NCBI GenBank assembly: GCA_030588745.1
Contig: JAUUXB010000005.1
Coordinates: 1-44,465 of the forward strand
DNA from: a bacterium
Lineage (GTDB): Bacteria; Patescibacteriota; Minisyncoccia; Minisyncoccales; JANBVM01
DNA: 44,465 nt
Reading direction: 5' to 3'
Position numbers and translations under genes: made by a program. The notes under the pieces were generated by a model. The model was given only the letters and a program-made list of their open reading frames with translations. It did no database searches and was not told the origin of the DNA. The stretch's first letter is position 1. Every line of letters begins with the position of its first letter. This document shows positions 38,728 to 44,369 of the stretch, piece by piece.

Positions 38728-38737
38728 TAGGTTAGTC

Positions 38738-38840
38738 TCAATCGCTTTTTTTTAACTCTTTGTTTTTCTCAACAAGAAAATAATTGTTGAGCGAGTTTTT
38801 CAGCATTCTGTTAACAGATGCTGAAAGATAAAGCGATTGA
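38738..38840 (+). ncRNA. Structured 5' leader of speD: three-way-junction candidate cis-regulatory RNA
   Basis: P1 TCAATCGCTTT (38738-38748)/AAAGCGATTGA (38830-38840), 11 bp perfect; P2 CTCAACAA (38768-38775)/TTGTTGAG (38784-38791); P3 about 38796-38806/38818-38828 plus CTG/CAG with TTAA loop. Confidence 0.7.
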
Positions 38841-38848
38841 CAAAGAAC

Positions 38849-39244
38849 ATGAACACAAAAACAAAGAGATCCATCAAATGGGTCATAGATACAAAAAATC
38901 AATTCAAACACGCAGGCATTCATTTAATTGCTGAGTTTTGGTATGGAAAAACTATTGAAAATGAAAAAGAATTAAAAGAAATCTTAATTAAAGCAGTTAA
39001 AAGAGCTAATTGCACTCCTTTAAAAATTGTAATCCATAAATTTGAACCGCAGGGAATCACTGGGGTTGTTTTATTGGCTGAAAGCCATATTGCGCTTCAC
39101 AGCTGGCCTGAATATGATTATGTTGCTATTGATATTTTTACCTGTGGAGATAGAGCTGTTCCTGAAAAAGCACTTGATTATTTAAGTACTGTACTGAATC
39201 CAAAAAAAGTTGAAATTAAGAAGATAGACAGGGGACAGGCTTAA
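38849..39244 (+). CDS. speD: S-adenosylmethionine decarboxylase family, prokaryotic pyruvoyl type; ATG at 38849 preferred over the track's TTG at 38837
   Basis: 'FKHAGIHLIAEFWYG', self-processing site region 'LLAESHIALHSWPEYDYVAIDIFTCGD'. Confidence 0.93.
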   Translation: MNTKTKRSIKWVIDTKNQFKHAGIHLIAEFWYGKTIENEKELKEILIKAVKRANCTPLKIVIHKFEPQGITGVVLLAESHIALHSWPEYDYVAIDIFTCGDRAVPEKALDYLSTVLNPKKVEIKKIDRGQA

Positions 39245-39258
39245 ACAGCTAAAAAACC

Positions 39259-40386
39259 ATGGAAAAATATTTTAAAGGGCTTTACATTAGATTTTTAAAA
39301 TCTCAAAAAGCAAGGTTTATTGAAGATAGTAAAAAACACTCAACAAGTCTTAAAGATTTGAAATTCTCAGATAAGATTCTTGGTGAGTTTTATGATAATT
39401 ATTACAAACCTACGTTTTTTGAGTTTTTGTATGATGTCAAAACAATAATTTATTCTGATAATGCTTTTGAATTTATTACAAAGCAAGCCCTAGAAGACTG
39501 GGACCTGCATCCTTATTTGAAACTTTTAATAGACGAGAAAATAATTAAAGTTTCAAAAAATGGAAAAGTTACTTTACTTAAAAAAGAAATTGAAAAGTTT
39601 ATTCCCAAACCTCAAACTGCAAAACAAATTAAAGCTGCTGTTGAAAAAAAATTAGGAATAAAAGCTAAAGACAAACAAGCAGTTATTAATTTATTTAAAA
39701 AGTTTGACAGATTCAAAGTTAAAGCTAAATGGGACCAAATGCCAATATCAGCTGAATCTGCATTTTTTGTTGCAGAGAAGATACTTGCAAAAATCCCTTT
39801 TAATAAAAAGTTTTTACTTGTTGGTGATGATGACTTTATTTCAGTTATTTTAACTTTGGTTGATCCAAATATTGAATGTTTGGCAATTGATATTGATGCT
39901 CAGCTGCTTGAGTGCATTGATATTTTAGCTAAGAAGTTCAAGCTAAAAATTAAAACCAAAAAAGTTGATTTAAGTAAAAAGAAAGATTTAAAAGAAAACT
40001 TTGTTGGATTTTTAGCTAATCCTGTTTACACAGAAACAGGAGTAAAAGAATTTGTTAAATTTGGTGTCAATCAGCTTTCAAAAGATGGGGGATTGGTGTT
40101 TTTAGAAATAGGAGATGAAGCAATAGGGAACAGATTTTTGTTTTTACAGGAATTCTTTTCAGAAAACAATCTGGTTATTAATGAGTTAATTCTGGGCAAA
40201 GTTTATTATCCTCATATTATGCTTTACAAAGAAGATAAAGAGATTCTAAAGAGACTTTCAACTTTAATTGATGAAAAGGTTATTAGAAACTCTTCTAAGC
40301 TTGGCGCTTCATTATATATCATGAATTACCTTCCTAAAAGACCTAAAAGAGTTAAATTTAAAAAACCATTTTATGCTTACCTCTAA
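39259..40386 (+). CDS. N4-bis(aminopropyl)spermidine synthase-like branched-chain polyamine synthase (BpsA family)
   Basis: 'WDQMPISAESAFFVAEKIL', 'FLLVGDDDFISVILTLVDPNIECLAIDIDAQLLECI', 'FLANPVYTETGVKEFVKFG' resembling GDDDxxS and NPxYTxxG motifs. Confidence 0.75.
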   Translation: MEKYFKGLYIRFLKSQKARFIEDSKKHSTSLKDLKFSDKILGEFYDNYYKPTFFEFLYDVKTIIYSDNAFEFITKQALEDWDLHPYLKLLIDEKIIKVSKNGKVTLLKKEIEKFIPKPQTAKQIKAAVEKKLGIKAKDKQAVINLFKKFDRFKVKAKWDQMPISAESAFFVAEKILAKIPFNKKFLLVGDDDFISVILTLVDPNIECLAIDIDAQLLECIDILAKKFKLKIKTKKVDLSKKKDLKENFVGFLANPVYTETGVKEFVKFGVNQLSKDGGLVFLEIGDEAIGNRFLFLQEFFSENNLVINELILGKVYYPHIMLYKEDKEILKRLSTLIDEKVIRNSSKLGASLYIMNYLPKRPKRVKFKKPFYAYL

Positions 40387-41248
40387 AGAAAAGTGGTTTT
40401 GCGAGGAAATTGCTCTTGGGAAAAGAGCGGGCAAAATCAAACATTGTTTTTCTATTGATAAAGTTGTTTTTAAAGGAAAAACTAATTTTCAAAATGTTCT
40501 AATCTTTGACAATAAGCTTTATAAAAGAGTATTGTGTCTTGATAAAATAGTTCAGTTTTCAGAACTGGACGGATTTATTTATCATGAGATGATTACTCAT
40601 CCAACATTATTTTCTCATCTGAAACCTGAAAACATTTTAATTATTGGAGGAGGAGACGGCGGTGTTTTAATGGAAGTTTTAAAGCACAATGTTAAGAAAG
40701 TTGATTTGGTTGAGATAGATAAAGAAATTATTGAGCTTTCTAAAAAATACCTTAAGTTTGTTTGTAAAAAAAGCTTTTTTGATAAAAGAGTAAAAATCCA
40801 CAACACAAAAGGAGAAAAGTTCATAATGGACTATATTGATTATTATGACGTAGTTATTCTTGACTGCACCAATCCTAAACCAGAAGGTCTTTCATCTGAG
40901 CTTTATTCAACAGAATTTTACAAACAAGTTTCAAGAGCATTAAAAAAAGATGGAATTATAATTACACTTGGTGCTTCTTTTTTGGATTTCGACACTTTTA
41001 TTAAAAAAACCTTTGAAAGAATAAAAAAGGTTTTTCAATTTGCTGCAATTTATAGATTTACAATGCCTTCTTATCATTGCGGTCAGTATTCATTTATTGC
41101 TGGTTCAAAGAAAGTAAATCTGGCCAGTGTTGATTTTAAAGAAATCGAACAAAGATTTAAAAAAATATCAAAAAAACATAAATTCAGTTATTATTCTCCA
41201 GAGATTCATAAATCTAGCATGATATTACCTAAAAACTGGCAGTTATGA
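40373..41248 (+). CDS. speE: Spermidine synthase-like aminopropyltransferase
   Basis: 'FQNVLIFDNKLYKRVLCLDKIVQFSELDGFIYHEMITHPTLFSH', 'ILIIGGGDGGVLMEVLKH', 'VDLVEIDKEIIELSKKYL', 'DVVILDCTNPKPEGLSSELYSTEFYKQV'. Confidence 0.88.
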   Translation: MLTSKEKWFCEEIALGKRAGKIKHCFSIDKVVFKGKTNFQNVLIFDNKLYKRVLCLDKIVQFSELDGFIYHEMITHPTLFSHLKPENILIIGGGDGGVLMEVLKHNVKKVDLVEIDKEIIELSKKYLKFVCKKSFFDKRVKIHNTKGEKFIMDYIDYYDVVILDCTNPKPEGLSSELYSTEFYKQVSRALKKDGIIITLGASFLDFDTFIKKTFERIKKVFQFAAIYRFTMPSYHCGQYSFIAGSKKVNLASVDFKEIEQRFKKISKKHKFSYYSPEIHKSSMILPKNWQL

Positions 41249-42222
41249 AAATAGTTATTTTTGGAAAAGGAAGGATAGGAAAAGCAGTAAAATATTATTT
41301 GAAAAAACTAAACCTTGATATAAAGGTTGGTTTTTTTAATACTGAGAAAGATGTAAAAGATTGTGATTTGCTAATTTCTGCTTTGCCTGGTGATGCTGGT
41401 GAGTTGGCTTTGGAATTAGCTTTGAAATATAGAAAAAATCTAATTGATATTGCTGATTTAGACTATGAGTTTTATTTGAAAAATAAAAACAATATTAGAA
41501 AAGCAGGAATTTTAGTCATTCCTTTTGCCGGGTTTTCTCCAGGACTTGTTAATTTTATATGCGGTAGGGAAGTGAAAGAAAACAAAGTTAAAGAAGTTGA
41601 AATTTCAGCAGGAAGTTTGTCAAAAGAAAAAGATTCTTTTCCGTTTTTATGGTGTTTTGAAGATTTAATAGAAGGCCATCAATTAAAAGTAACTTTAGTT
41701 AAAAATGGAAAAAAGATTAAAAAACCTGCTTTTTCTGATTATAAAAAACAAAAAATTGAAAAACTTGATGCTGAGTCATATTTAGCTGAAGGGTTGGGAT
41801 CTTTAATAGACAATTTAAAGGTTAAGAATATGACATATAGGATTATTAGGAATATAGGGTTCTATGAGTTTTTTAAATCTTTAGAAAATCAAAGTTTGTT
41901 GAATGAGAAAAACATTGAATCAACGCAAAGAAAATTAGAGTCTAGAAAACAAGATAATTTAACAATAGGAGTAATCAAGATCAAAACTGATAAAAAAGAA
42001 ATTATTTGGAAAATGAAAGCATTTTCAAAAGAAACGGAATTACTGAATTCAATGCAAAAAATAACAGCTGTTTTTCCAGCAATATTAGTAAAAGAAATAT
42101 TAGAAGGAAATATTATTCAGAAAGGATTAGTCTTTCTAGAGGAATTAGGGCAAAACAAGGATTTATTTAAAAAAATTATATCTCAAATCAAAAAACAAAT
42201 TTTTTTAACCCGTACCATTTAG
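41245..42222 (+). CDS. Saccharopine dehydrogenase-like NAD(P)-dependent oxidoreductase
   Basis: 'MKIVIFGKGRIGKAVKYYLKK', 'DLLISALPGDAGELALELALKYRKNLIDIADLDYEFY', 'AGILVIPFAGFSPGLVNFI'; ATGA overlap with speE. Confidence 0.75.
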   Translation: MKIVIFGKGRIGKAVKYYLKKLNLDIKVGFFNTEKDVKDCDLLISALPGDAGELALELALKYRKNLIDIADLDYEFYLKNKNNIRKAGILVIPFAGFSPGLVNFICGREVKENKVKEVEISAGSLSKEKDSFPFLWCFEDLIEGHQLKVTLVKNGKKIKKPAFSDYKKQKIEKLDAESYLAEGLGSLIDNLKVKNMTYRIIRNIGFYEFFKSLENQSLLNEKNIESTQRKLESRKQDNLTIGVIKIKTDKKEIIWKMKAFSKETELLNSMQKITAVFPAILVKEILEGNIIQKGLVFLEELGQNKDLFKKIISQIKKQIFLTRTI

Positions 42223-42283
42223 TTTGCGCTCTGTACGTGGGATAATGATGAATGGCGAAAATATCAAAATTCTATCTTAATTT

Positions 42284-42314
42284 ATAGAAAGAGCTTGCTC
42301 TTCTATTTTTTTTT
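42284..42314 (+). terminator. Intrinsic terminator at end of polyamine operon
   Basis: ATAGAAAGAGC-TT-GCTCTTCTAT (10 bp, one bulged A) followed by a long T tract. Confidence 0.85.
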
Positions 42315-42332: not shown

Positions 42333-44369
42333 ATGTCAATTTTAAATAAGTTTTTTGGTGACCCGAATGCAAAATACTTGAAAAAACTAGAACCGCTTGT
42401 AAAAAAAATAAATTCCCTTGAAAAAGAATTTCAGGGGTTTTCTAATGAAAAGCTGAAAGAAAAAACTACTGAGTTCAAGCAAAGATTAAAAAAAGGCGAA
42501 ACTTTAAATGATATTTTATCAGGAGCTTTTGCTTTGGTAAGAGAAGCATCAAAAAGAACTTTGAACCAGCGCCATTATGATGTTCAATTGGTTGGGGGAA
42601 TTGCTCTTCATCAGGGAAAAATTGCTGAAATGAAAACAGGAGAAGGAAAAACTTTAGCAGCAACCCTTCCTTTATACTTAAATGCTTTAAAAGGAAAAGG
42701 AGCTCATTTAGTTACTGTTAATGATTATTTAGCTAGGCGTGATACTGTTTGGATGGGTCAGATTTTCCACGTATTAGGATTAAGTGTTGGTTGCTTAAAT
42801 CATCAGCAATCATTTATATATGATCCCGAATACAAAAAGCCGGAAGAGGAAGAAGAAAAATTAAGAGATGAGCTTGGTGGTTTTTTCGTTGTTGAGGATT
42901 TTTTAAGACCATGCGAAAGAAAACAGGCCTACCAAGCTGATATTCCCTATGGAACAAACAATGAGTTTGGATTCGATTATTTAAGGGATAATATGGTTTA
43001 TGCTTTAGATCAGCGCGTACAACGTGATTTTAATTTTGCAATCATTGATGAAATTGACTCAATTTTAATTGATGAAGCCAGAACTCCTTTGATTATTTCA
43101 GCTCCTGACGTAGAAAGCTCAAAGTGGTACAAAGATTTTGCAAGAATAATTCCCAGACTAGATTCAAAAACTGATTATGAGATTGATGAAAAAAGAAAGG
43201 TTGCTACTTTGACCGAGAAGGGAATTGATAAGATTGAAAAGATTTTAGGGATGAAAAATATTTATGAGGAGAGGGGAATTAGATATTTACGTCATTTAGA
43301 GCAAGCATTAAGAGCCCAGGCTTTGTTTAAAAAAGACAGGGATTATGTTGTTAAAGAAGGACAAATTATTATTGTCGATGAATTTACTGGAAGGTTAATG
43401 CCTGGCAGGCGTTGGTCAAGAGGGCTTCATCAGGCAATAGAAGCAAAGGAAGGATTAGAAGTGCGGCCTGAATCTTTAACTTTAGCATCTATTACTTTTC
43501 AGAATCTTTTTAGAATGTACAAGAAACTAGCTGGAATGACAGGAACTGCTGTAACTTCAGCTGAAGAGTTTGAAAAAGTCTATAATTTAGAAACAGTTGT
43601 TATTCCAACAAACAAGCCCTTAATTAGAAAAGCTTTGACTGATAAGATTTATAAGTCAGAGAGCGTAAAATACAAAGCAATAGTAAAGGAGATTGAAAAA
43701 AGAAATAAATCAGGACAACCAGTATTAGTGGGAACTCGTTCTATTGAAAAGAATGAATATTTAGGAAATCTGCTTCAAAAACAAGGAATAAAACATCAGA
43801 TTTTAAATGCTAAAAACCATGAAAAAGAAGGTCAGATTATTGCCCAGGCAGGAAAACTTAATGCTGTAACAATTGCTACTAATATGGCAGGCAGAGGGGT
43901 TGATATAGTTTTAGGAGGAAATCCACTCAATGAAAATGAATCTAAAAAAATAAAAGAATTAGGAGGGCTTCATGTTATTGGAACTGAAAGACATGAAGCA
44001 AGACGCATTGATAATCAGCTGCGGGGAAGATCAGGAAGACAGGGTGATTCTGGTTCAAGCCAATTCTTCTTGTCTTTGGAAGATGATTTAATGAGAGTTT
44101 TTGGAGGAGAAAGATTGAAAAACTTAATAACAAAATTAAATCTTCCAGAAGACCAGCCAATTGAAGCTAATTTGGTTTCAAAAGCATTAGAAGATGCCCA
44201 ATCAAGAATTGAAGGAATGAATTTTGATTTAAGAAAACATGTTTTAGAGTATGACGATGTAATAAACAAGCACCGTGATGTAGTTTATAAAAAAAGAAAA
44301 GAGGTTTTGGGGAAGACTGATGAAAAACAAATAAAACCATTTATTTTAGAGATTTTCGAAAATCCCTGA
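42333..44369 (+). CDS. secA: Preprotein translocase subunit SecA, frame interrupted before the C-terminal helical domains
   Basis: '[35 protein letters not shown]', '[16 protein letters not shown]', '[20 protein letters not shown]', '[26 protein letters not shown]'; stops at 678 aa. Confidence 0.93.

Follow-up and report, generated by a model that had tools for sequence, protein, structure and literature searches.

What can a streamlined bacterium build with a polyamine cassette that contains a BpsA-like enzyme, and how is such a cassette controlled? This question is raised by four adjacent genes on the forward strand (positions 38849-42222) of a 44,465-nt stretch of DNA, hereafter the window, which is contig 7 of the draft genome GCA_030588745.1 (625,872 bases, 30 contigs, completeness 95.6%). 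The source organism is a streamlined, probably host-dependent bacterium of the Candidate Phyla Radiation (CPR, Patescibacteria). The cassette proves to be a real, conserved polyamine operon, in which known enzyme families form a new combination in a lineage where BpsA was unexpected. An original prediction made from the sequence alone had named the enzyme families, their consecutive arrangement and a possible scavenging role, all of which stood; its self-contained variant and its alternative activity for SpeD did not, and its carboxyspermidine reading came out weak. It contained neither the conserved leader RNA found upstream of speD nor the wider pairing and fusion of SpeD with BpsA-like proteins.

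A conserved four-gene operon

The four open reading frames (ORFs) encode, in this order, SpeD, a BpsA-like aminopropyltransferase, a SpeE-like aminopropyltransferase and a saccharopine-dehydrogenase (SDH)-like oxidoreductase. Their coordinates agree with the predicted run of consecutive genes, the second and third overlapping by 14 nt and the third and fourth by an ATGA (4 nt). Profile searches of each protein, one of the checks that had been proposed, matched AdoMet_dc, BpsA_C, Spermine_synth and Sacchrp_dh_C, while Sacchrp_dh_NADP remained unmatched. A survey of neighbourhoods, also proposed, recovered the same gene order in five relatives, one from the same genus (G001) and four from the same order (G044, G018, G564 and G616, the SDH gene of G018 ending at a contig edge), with protein identities of 34-85%. 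Given this recurrence, the four-gene arrangement is beyond chance. The cassette is flanked by hpf, encoding a ribosome hibernation factor, on one side and by secA on the other, and murB lies upstream of hpf.

SpeD carries the residues of an S-adenosylmethionine decarboxylase

Judged by its sequence, SpeD looks like an ordinary S-adenosylmethionine (SAM) decarboxylase (AdoMetDC), its best-supported activity. It scores 124.8 bits against Pfam AdoMet_dc (PF02675, cut-off 25) and 134.2 bits, above the cut-off, against the equivalog TIGR03330, and matches class 1b AdoMetDC along its whole length. Comparison of its active site with tested enzymes, as had been suggested, returned the AdoMetDC pattern: Ser79 (the pyruvoyl residue), His84 and Cys99 align with S63, H68 and C83 of the Thermotoga maritima enzyme (1tlu, 2iii), with which it also shares the WPE motif and its length, and the WPE-Pro position is of AdoMetDC type. 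Two central-region prolines, P67 and P87, are both kept in all four aligned SpeD sequences, so that the published gamma-Pro, by which AdoMetDC differs from the SpeDA arginine decarboxylases, is retained whichever of the two it is. It differs from the T. maritima enzyme by an N-terminal extension of about 18 residues (NTKTKRSIKW...), whose codons are part of the RNA element described below.

It had been suggested that SpeD might be a pyruvoyl-dependent ornithine or arginine decarboxylase (ODC/ADC). A neofunctionalised decarboxylase of this kind would make the operon self-contained, and such enzymes (SpeDC, SpeDA) exist in CPR bacteria (PMC10407285), SpeDC-like genes being present in relatives of the source organism (L056, L081 and L082). 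The window protein lacks the SpeDC signature: where the SpeDC-like proteins read VQLIETS...HF (L056 and L081) or TQLIETS...HF (L082), it reads VVLLAESHIALHSWPEY and the diagnostic Gln/Thr/Phe/Tyr set was not found, the exact columns being inferred. Both prolines of the central region are retained, its score exceeds the AdoMetDC equivalog cut-off, and it is the sole SpeD homologue of a genome in which two enzymes that use decarboxylated SAM (dcSAM) adjoin it. The active-site residues, the equivalog score and the gene context thus rule against an ODC/ADC, which we regard as extremely unlikely.

The BpsA-like enzyme and SpeD form the core of the cassette

The assignment of the second gene to the BpsA family was borne out by profile, fold and motif. 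The protein scores 74.4 bits against BpsA_C (PF01861, cut-off 27), a match that covers only profile positions 12-186 of 243. Its AlphaFold2 (AF2) model, with a predicted local distance difference test score (pLDDT) of 86.4, retrieved in Foldseek nine top PDB matches that were all BpsA chains or the Pyrococcus homologue 2qm3 (E from 3e-12 to 6e-11), the next fold following at 1.9e-7. The methyltransferase-like fold is shared with BpsA of Thermococcus kodakarensis (5xnc) and Thermus thermophilus (6j27). Identity to the solved enzymes is about 17%, and whole-chain template modelling (TM) scores reached only 0.44-0.51 with a large root-mean-square deviation, probably due to the orientation of the domains. 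The GDDD motif (G189-D190-D191-D192), which positions dcSAM in true BpsA (PMC12979288), is present and invariant in 11 sequences. In contrast, the acidic cluster at the C-terminus, which in T. kodakarensis BpsA is reported to carry the aminopropyl group (PMC12979288), was not found, as there is no Asp or Glu among the last 29 residues. Branching activity is therefore uncertain.

We then looked at the distribution of such proteins in 382 sampled Patescibacteria genomes. A BpsA-like match occurred in 22 genomes besides the source genome, making up 24 loci outside its order, 22 of them with SpeD fused or nearby: a SpeD domain was encoded in the same ORF in 15 of them, a separate SpeD gene was adjacent or close in seven (with one intervening gene in L064), and none was seen in the stretch examined in two. 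A peptide-pattern scan of contigs for BpsA, whose patterns were strict, returned only three loci. Relatives that lack SpeE and SDH keep the speD-bpsA pair (L057, L059, L060 and L071). SpeD and the BpsA-like enzyme are the core of the cassette, and their adjacency and fusion make dcSAM the likely substrate of the BpsA-like enzymes. In other Patescibacteria families the fusions are single ORFs of 335-458 residues, BpsA-like with a C-terminal SpeD domain (L062, L063, L065, L066, L069, L072, L073, L027 and L035); in those fused SpeD domains that were inspected, Ser and His are retained throughout and Cys in most, L069 being without it.

What the enzyme transfers, and where, can be understood in two ways. 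It could serve CPR bacteria as their general aminopropyltransferase for linear polyamines, in the role that SpeE has elsewhere (converting for example putrescine to spermidine), with SpeE as an add-on. The occurrence of speD-bpsA without speE in L057, L059 and L060, the SpeD-BpsA fusions of other families, the missing acidic cluster, the unmatched BpsA_C positions past 186 and the low identity to solved BpsA all point that way. Against this, the dcSAM-positioning GDDD of true BpsA is invariant across relatives, and in one of them (G004, locus L056) the cassette comprises speD, a SpeDC-like gene, speE and bpsA, so that linear synthesis is already covered there. We take linear transfer as a serious contender that falls somewhat short of probable, and keep branching as our working assignment.

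The environments from which these genomes were obtained are presumably not hot. The CPR proteins, found in groundwater-type metagenomes and fused to SpeD in some families, differ in both respects from thermophile BpsA, with which they share the pairing with SpeD as dcSAM supply. A 2026 review describes bpsA, and hence branched polyamines, as restricted to thermophiles (PMC12979288), and we found no description of BpsA in Patescibacteria (subscription papers lay outside the search); the CPR distribution is therefore apparently undescribed in the literature searched.

SpeE and the fourth enzyme

SpeE scores 179 bits against Pfam Spermine_synth (cut-off 22.9) and passes two NCBIfam equivalogs, NF002010 (267.7, cut-off 260) and TIGR00417 (253.3, cut-off 249.55). 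Its GGGDGG and VEID motifs are compatible with a spermidine or a spermine synthase: spermine-synthase-type SpeE has the motif 2 Asp followed by x-Gly and the motif 3 Glu, and these motifs do not separate off spermidine synthases (PMC11107197). An altered active site as the sign of a new acceptor was also considered and rejected, since the FLD loop occurs in the SpeE of L056 as well, which has no SDH, and is therefore not specific.

The fourth gene had been described as saccharopine-dehydrogenase-like, a fold that was confirmed by Foldseek with its AF2 model (pLDDT 84.3), which displays the full two-domain architecture. In Pfam the C-terminal domain alone scores (Sacchrp_dh_C, 43.9 bits, cut-off 31), with no match to Sacchrp_dh_NADP. 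The closest protein is PH1688 (3abi), an L-lysine 6-dehydrogenase, matched over the whole length by profile (E 3e-41, about 25% identity), sharing the W-x-x-x-DLI and R-x-x-G stretches, and best in Foldseek with TM 0.87-0.88, compared with about 0.76 for carboxyspermidine dehydrogenase (CASDH). By both sequence and fold the protein is nearest to 3abi, and it falls on the L-lysine-6-dehydrogenase branch. It differs from PH1688 by its place among polyamine genes and by a shortened Rossmann domain: about 25 residues present in 3abi and in the L058 protein are missing in the window protein and its close relatives, the GxGxxG turn being kept. Homospermidine synthase was discarded as a candidate, no such entry being among the PDB sequence matches.

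Two functions other than the one we favour were weighed. The first is the carboxylated-polyamine route suggested originally, in which a carboxyspermidine-type dehydrogenase joins aspartate semialdehyde to an amine. CASDH (8deb, 8h4z) has the same superfamily fold and general chemistry, the gene lies within a polyamine operon, and a CASDH-like gene does stand beside one for a carboxyspermidine decarboxylase (CASDC)-like protein in another CPR genome (L099). The His228-Glu229-Glu230 triad of CASDH (PMC10413350), however, was not found in the fourth protein, where the aligned positions are Ala-Glu-Gly, and 3abi is closer by sequence and by fold. Moreover, the genome yielded no match to aspartate-semialdehyde dehydrogenase (Semialdhyde_dh, PF01118) and none to the CASDC-type family PF02784, which would leave the CASDH reaction without its aldehyde and its decarboxylase. 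With the triad absent, we rejected the assignment as CASDH, and the route that it implies is very unlikely.

The second possibility is that the enzyme is a lysine 6-dehydrogenase or another amino-acid dehydrogenase whose presence in the operon has nothing to do with polyamines. PH1688 being the best match speaks in favour of it, as does the loss of SDH in several relatives that retain speD-bpsA. In the order of the source organism, however, wherever the flanks are intact, SDH is always the last gene of the speD-bpsA-speE set and is tightly spaced with or overlaps speE, and we find an incidental place somewhat unlikely. We infer instead that the enzyme, as an amine dehydrogenase or a reductive aminase, draws its substrates from the polyamine pool.

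Two arrangements seen elsewhere concern these families: one CPR genome carries a CASDH-like gene followed by a CASDC-like one (L099, 6115-8567), and in another an agmatinase-like gene adjoins an SDH-like gene (L100, 5053-7115).

A proposed pathway fed by scavenged amines

The absence of ODC/ADC, agmatinase and carboxyspermidine decarboxylase, first noted for the window, holds for the genome as far as profile searches reach: they found no pyridoxal-phosphate (PLP) fold-III ODC/ADC/CASDC (PF02784), OKR decarboxylase or agmatinase, the PvlArgDC-type arginine decarboxylase not having been searched. With no diamine-forming enzyme of the searched families, the cassette looks dependent on imported amines. 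The scavenging pathway that had been put forward fits this result, whereas a self-contained one is unsupported.

In many relatives the corresponding slot between hpf and secA contains a SpeDC-like gene together with speD and speE, an arrangement shared with the SpeDC-SpeD-SpeE clusters described in CPR bacteria (PMC10407285); the window differs in having BpsA-like and SDH genes instead of SpeDC. The slot seems to hold interchangeable polyamine cassettes. The SpeDC-like genes, probably encoding pyruvoyl ornithine decarboxylases, lie at 6557-6919 in L056, 1042-1422 in L081 and 5400-5804 in L082, two of them in the slot. In a genome of the same class (G206, L102 5406-6632) the slot is occupied, without speD, by a gene for a 408-residue saccharopine-dehydrogenase-like protein beside a probable flavin mononucleotide (FMN) reductase gene.

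In the pathway that we propose, SpeD would make dcSAM, from which the BpsA-like enzyme and SpeE would each move aminopropyl groups onto di- and triamines taken up from outside, giving a longer, probably branched polyamine. The fourth enzyme, as an NAD(P)-dependent amine dehydrogenase or reductive aminase, would most likely join or remove an aminoalkyl unit.

A conserved RNA element leads into speD

The intergenic region before speD folds much more stably than its shuffles (z = -4.05), and relatives share a common plan upstream of this gene: a helix P1 that comes close to the AUG, with an invariant CUCUUUGUUUU on the 5' side and variable hairpins, and then the AUG itself. A covariance model (R1) gave 137.9 bits in the window, which belongs to its seed, and, when run on 247 genomes of the order, matched 41 of them with E <= 0.01. 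Each of the 30 matches that reach E <= 1e-11 lies ahead of speD, irrespective of what else the cassette contains.

Base pairing was assessed in an alignment of 29 sequences (A10), among which the 11 seed sequences, unlike the others, match the model by construction. In this alignment 97.8% of cells were paired; nine pairs showed changes on both sides, where shuffles gave 5.0 (1 of 500 reaching as many), and 36 cells were changed on both sides, where shuffles gave 8.7 (0 of 500). When the partner was slid by 1-3 columns as a control, only 0-3 pairs and 0-7 cells remained. P1 covaries strongly, with both sides changed in eight of its ten modelled pairs, and in the hairpin P4, which lies inside the speD coding region, the second pair is AU in 20 sequences, GC in four, GU in three and UA in two. 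Because A10 was fitted to P1 and P4, it is biased towards both; the first, structure-free MAFFT alignment (A8) had 95.9% of cells paired and three pairs with changes on both sides, and RNAalifold predicted P1 and P4 unprompted. The hairpins P2 and P3 vary in length and sequence.

No Rfam family, SAM-I included, exceeded its gathering threshold for the leader, and no known RNA family could be assigned from this database. Family f8 (L058, L133 and L136) has a diverged form of the leader that keeps P1, with a shorter match to the speD codons. Outside the order, 387 sampled genomes of the class gave only weak matches (L134, L135, L137 and L138), dismissed because they adjoin unrelated genes. No such leader RNA was found for Patescibacteria in the literature (subscription papers again outside the search), and the leader is apparently an undescribed cis-regulatory RNA.

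Proposed pseudoknot over the speD start codon

The invariant CUCUUUGUUUU of the leader is complementary to AAAACAAAGAG, the stretch of speD that encodes K-T-K-R a few codons past the AUG. In the 29 sequences, 99.0% of the cells in the ten modelled pairs of this helix are paired and none of the pairs is changed on both sides, so that the pseudoknot rests on invariance and complementarity, not on covariation. Codon choice in the coding strand is fixed in the alignment (a separate N-terminal listing had been selected for AAG): each of the 27 rows with Thr at this position uses ACA, compared with 17% elsewhere in the same genes, and the Lys codon is AAG in 29 of 29, compared with 19%. This invariant complementarity suggests a pseudoknot over the start codon of speD.

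A rival explanation would be a hairpin for protein binding or RNA processing, without regulatory function, the match to the codons being a by-product of A/U-rich sequence. It would account for the variability of P2 and P3 and for the missing both-side changes in the pseudoknot helix; the leaders are indeed U/A-rich, and for some individual sequences a few of 200 shuffles reached the 12-nt match. It accounts less well for a leader motif and codons that are near-invariant and complementary across the alignment at a fixed place near the AUG, for Thr and Lys codons frozen on rare synonyms, and for the covariation of P4 inside the coding region. We judge this explanation unlikely and retain the regulatory pseudoknot.

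If formed in vivo, P1 together with the pairing of CUCUUUGUUUU to codons 3-7 would put the ribosome binding site and the AUG in the loop of the pseudoknot, where initiation would be hindered, probably as feedback. The simplest guess for the feedback signal is a polyamine or a metabolite related to SAM. The spermidine riboswitch described to date is a variant of SAM-I from Bacillota (PMC10853860). It is likewise a structured leader before polyamine genes, speD among them; the window leader differs from it in architecture and lineage, in having no SAM-I match, and in the use of speD codons as a strand of the proposed pseudoknot.

We lean towards reading the locus as a polyamine-elongation operon working on scavenged amines, with speD controlled by its own mRNA through P1 and the pseudoknot. 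Several observations weigh against it. Besides the invariance of the pseudoknot helix, the chance matches of shuffled leaders and the missing acidic cluster of the BpsA-like protein, the SpeE of the window and of some relatives has Asn in place of the second Asp of DxxD, and the loss of about 25 Rossmann residues means that cofactor binding by the SDH-like protein is not assured. The genome is a draft, in whose gaps a decarboxylase could lie, and amine import is presumed.

A bolder extension, which we hold possible and do not favour, is that the leader is a new riboswitch class of one CPR order, in which binding of a polyamine, or of a metabolite related to SAM, stabilises a pseudoknot with the first codons of speD as one strand, and that the operon lets non-thermophiles make a branched polyamine through a divergent BpsA, encoded in other genomes as a fusion with SpeD. 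A CPR branch of BpsA tied to SpeD would, if true, overturn the restriction of BpsA and branched polyamines to thermophiles (PMC12979288), and the adjacency and fusion with SpeD suggest that these bacteria, with most of their biosynthesis lost, possess a module dedicated to passing dcSAM to BpsA. The leader RNA is a new candidate for the control of polyamine synthesis, and would be an unusual case of a protein start constrained by RNA pairing.

Features of the locus

Table 1. Coordinates in the window of the operon, its leader RNA and its probable terminator.
Feature	Position	Strand	Evidence
Conserved structured RNA: speD 5' leader and first codons (P1, variable P2/P3, proposed pseudoknot strands, P4)	38731..38902	+	Covariance model, covariation, fold
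P1 5' strand CAAUCGCUU	38739..38747	+	Both-side changes in alignment
Leader strand CUCUUUGUUUUU of proposed pseudoknot	38756..38767	+	Perfect 12-nt complement of speD codons
P1 3' strand AAGCGAUUG (within coordinates), ~10 nt before speD AUG	38829..38839	+	Fold, alignment
speD, S-adenosylmethionine decarboxylase (class 1b)	38849..39244	+	PF02675 and TIGR03330 scores, aligned catalytic residues
Coding strand AAAAACAAAGAG of proposed pseudoknot, within speD codons T-K-T-K-R	38857..38868	+	Complementarity, alignment
P4 hairpin GAUCCAU-CAA-AUGGGUC in speD coding region (S-I-K-W-V codons)	38868..38884	+	Alignment
BpsA-like aminopropyltransferase	39259..40386	+	PF01861 score, GDDD motif, AF2 model/Foldseek
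speE, polyamine aminopropyltransferase	40373..41248	+	NF002010 score, GGGDGG and VEID motifs
Saccharopine-dehydrogenase-fold oxidoreductase, L-lysine-6-dehydrogenase branch, shortened Rossmann domain	41245..42222	+	Profile match to 3abi, AF2 model/Foldseek
Probable terminator hairpin AUAGAAAGAGCUUGCUCUUCUAU and U-run	42283..42313	+	RNA fold

The operon had been predicted to end at an intrinsic terminator. RNA folding does place a 9-bp hairpin with a bulge, and then a run of U, 3' of the operon, whereas a stricter consensus scan listed none after it; an intrinsic terminator is plausible at this position. Downstream, SecA (42333-44369) stops at 678 residues compared with 816-852 in relatives, its stop codon being some 100 bases short of the end of the contig, which may reflect an assembly-edge error or a real truncation.

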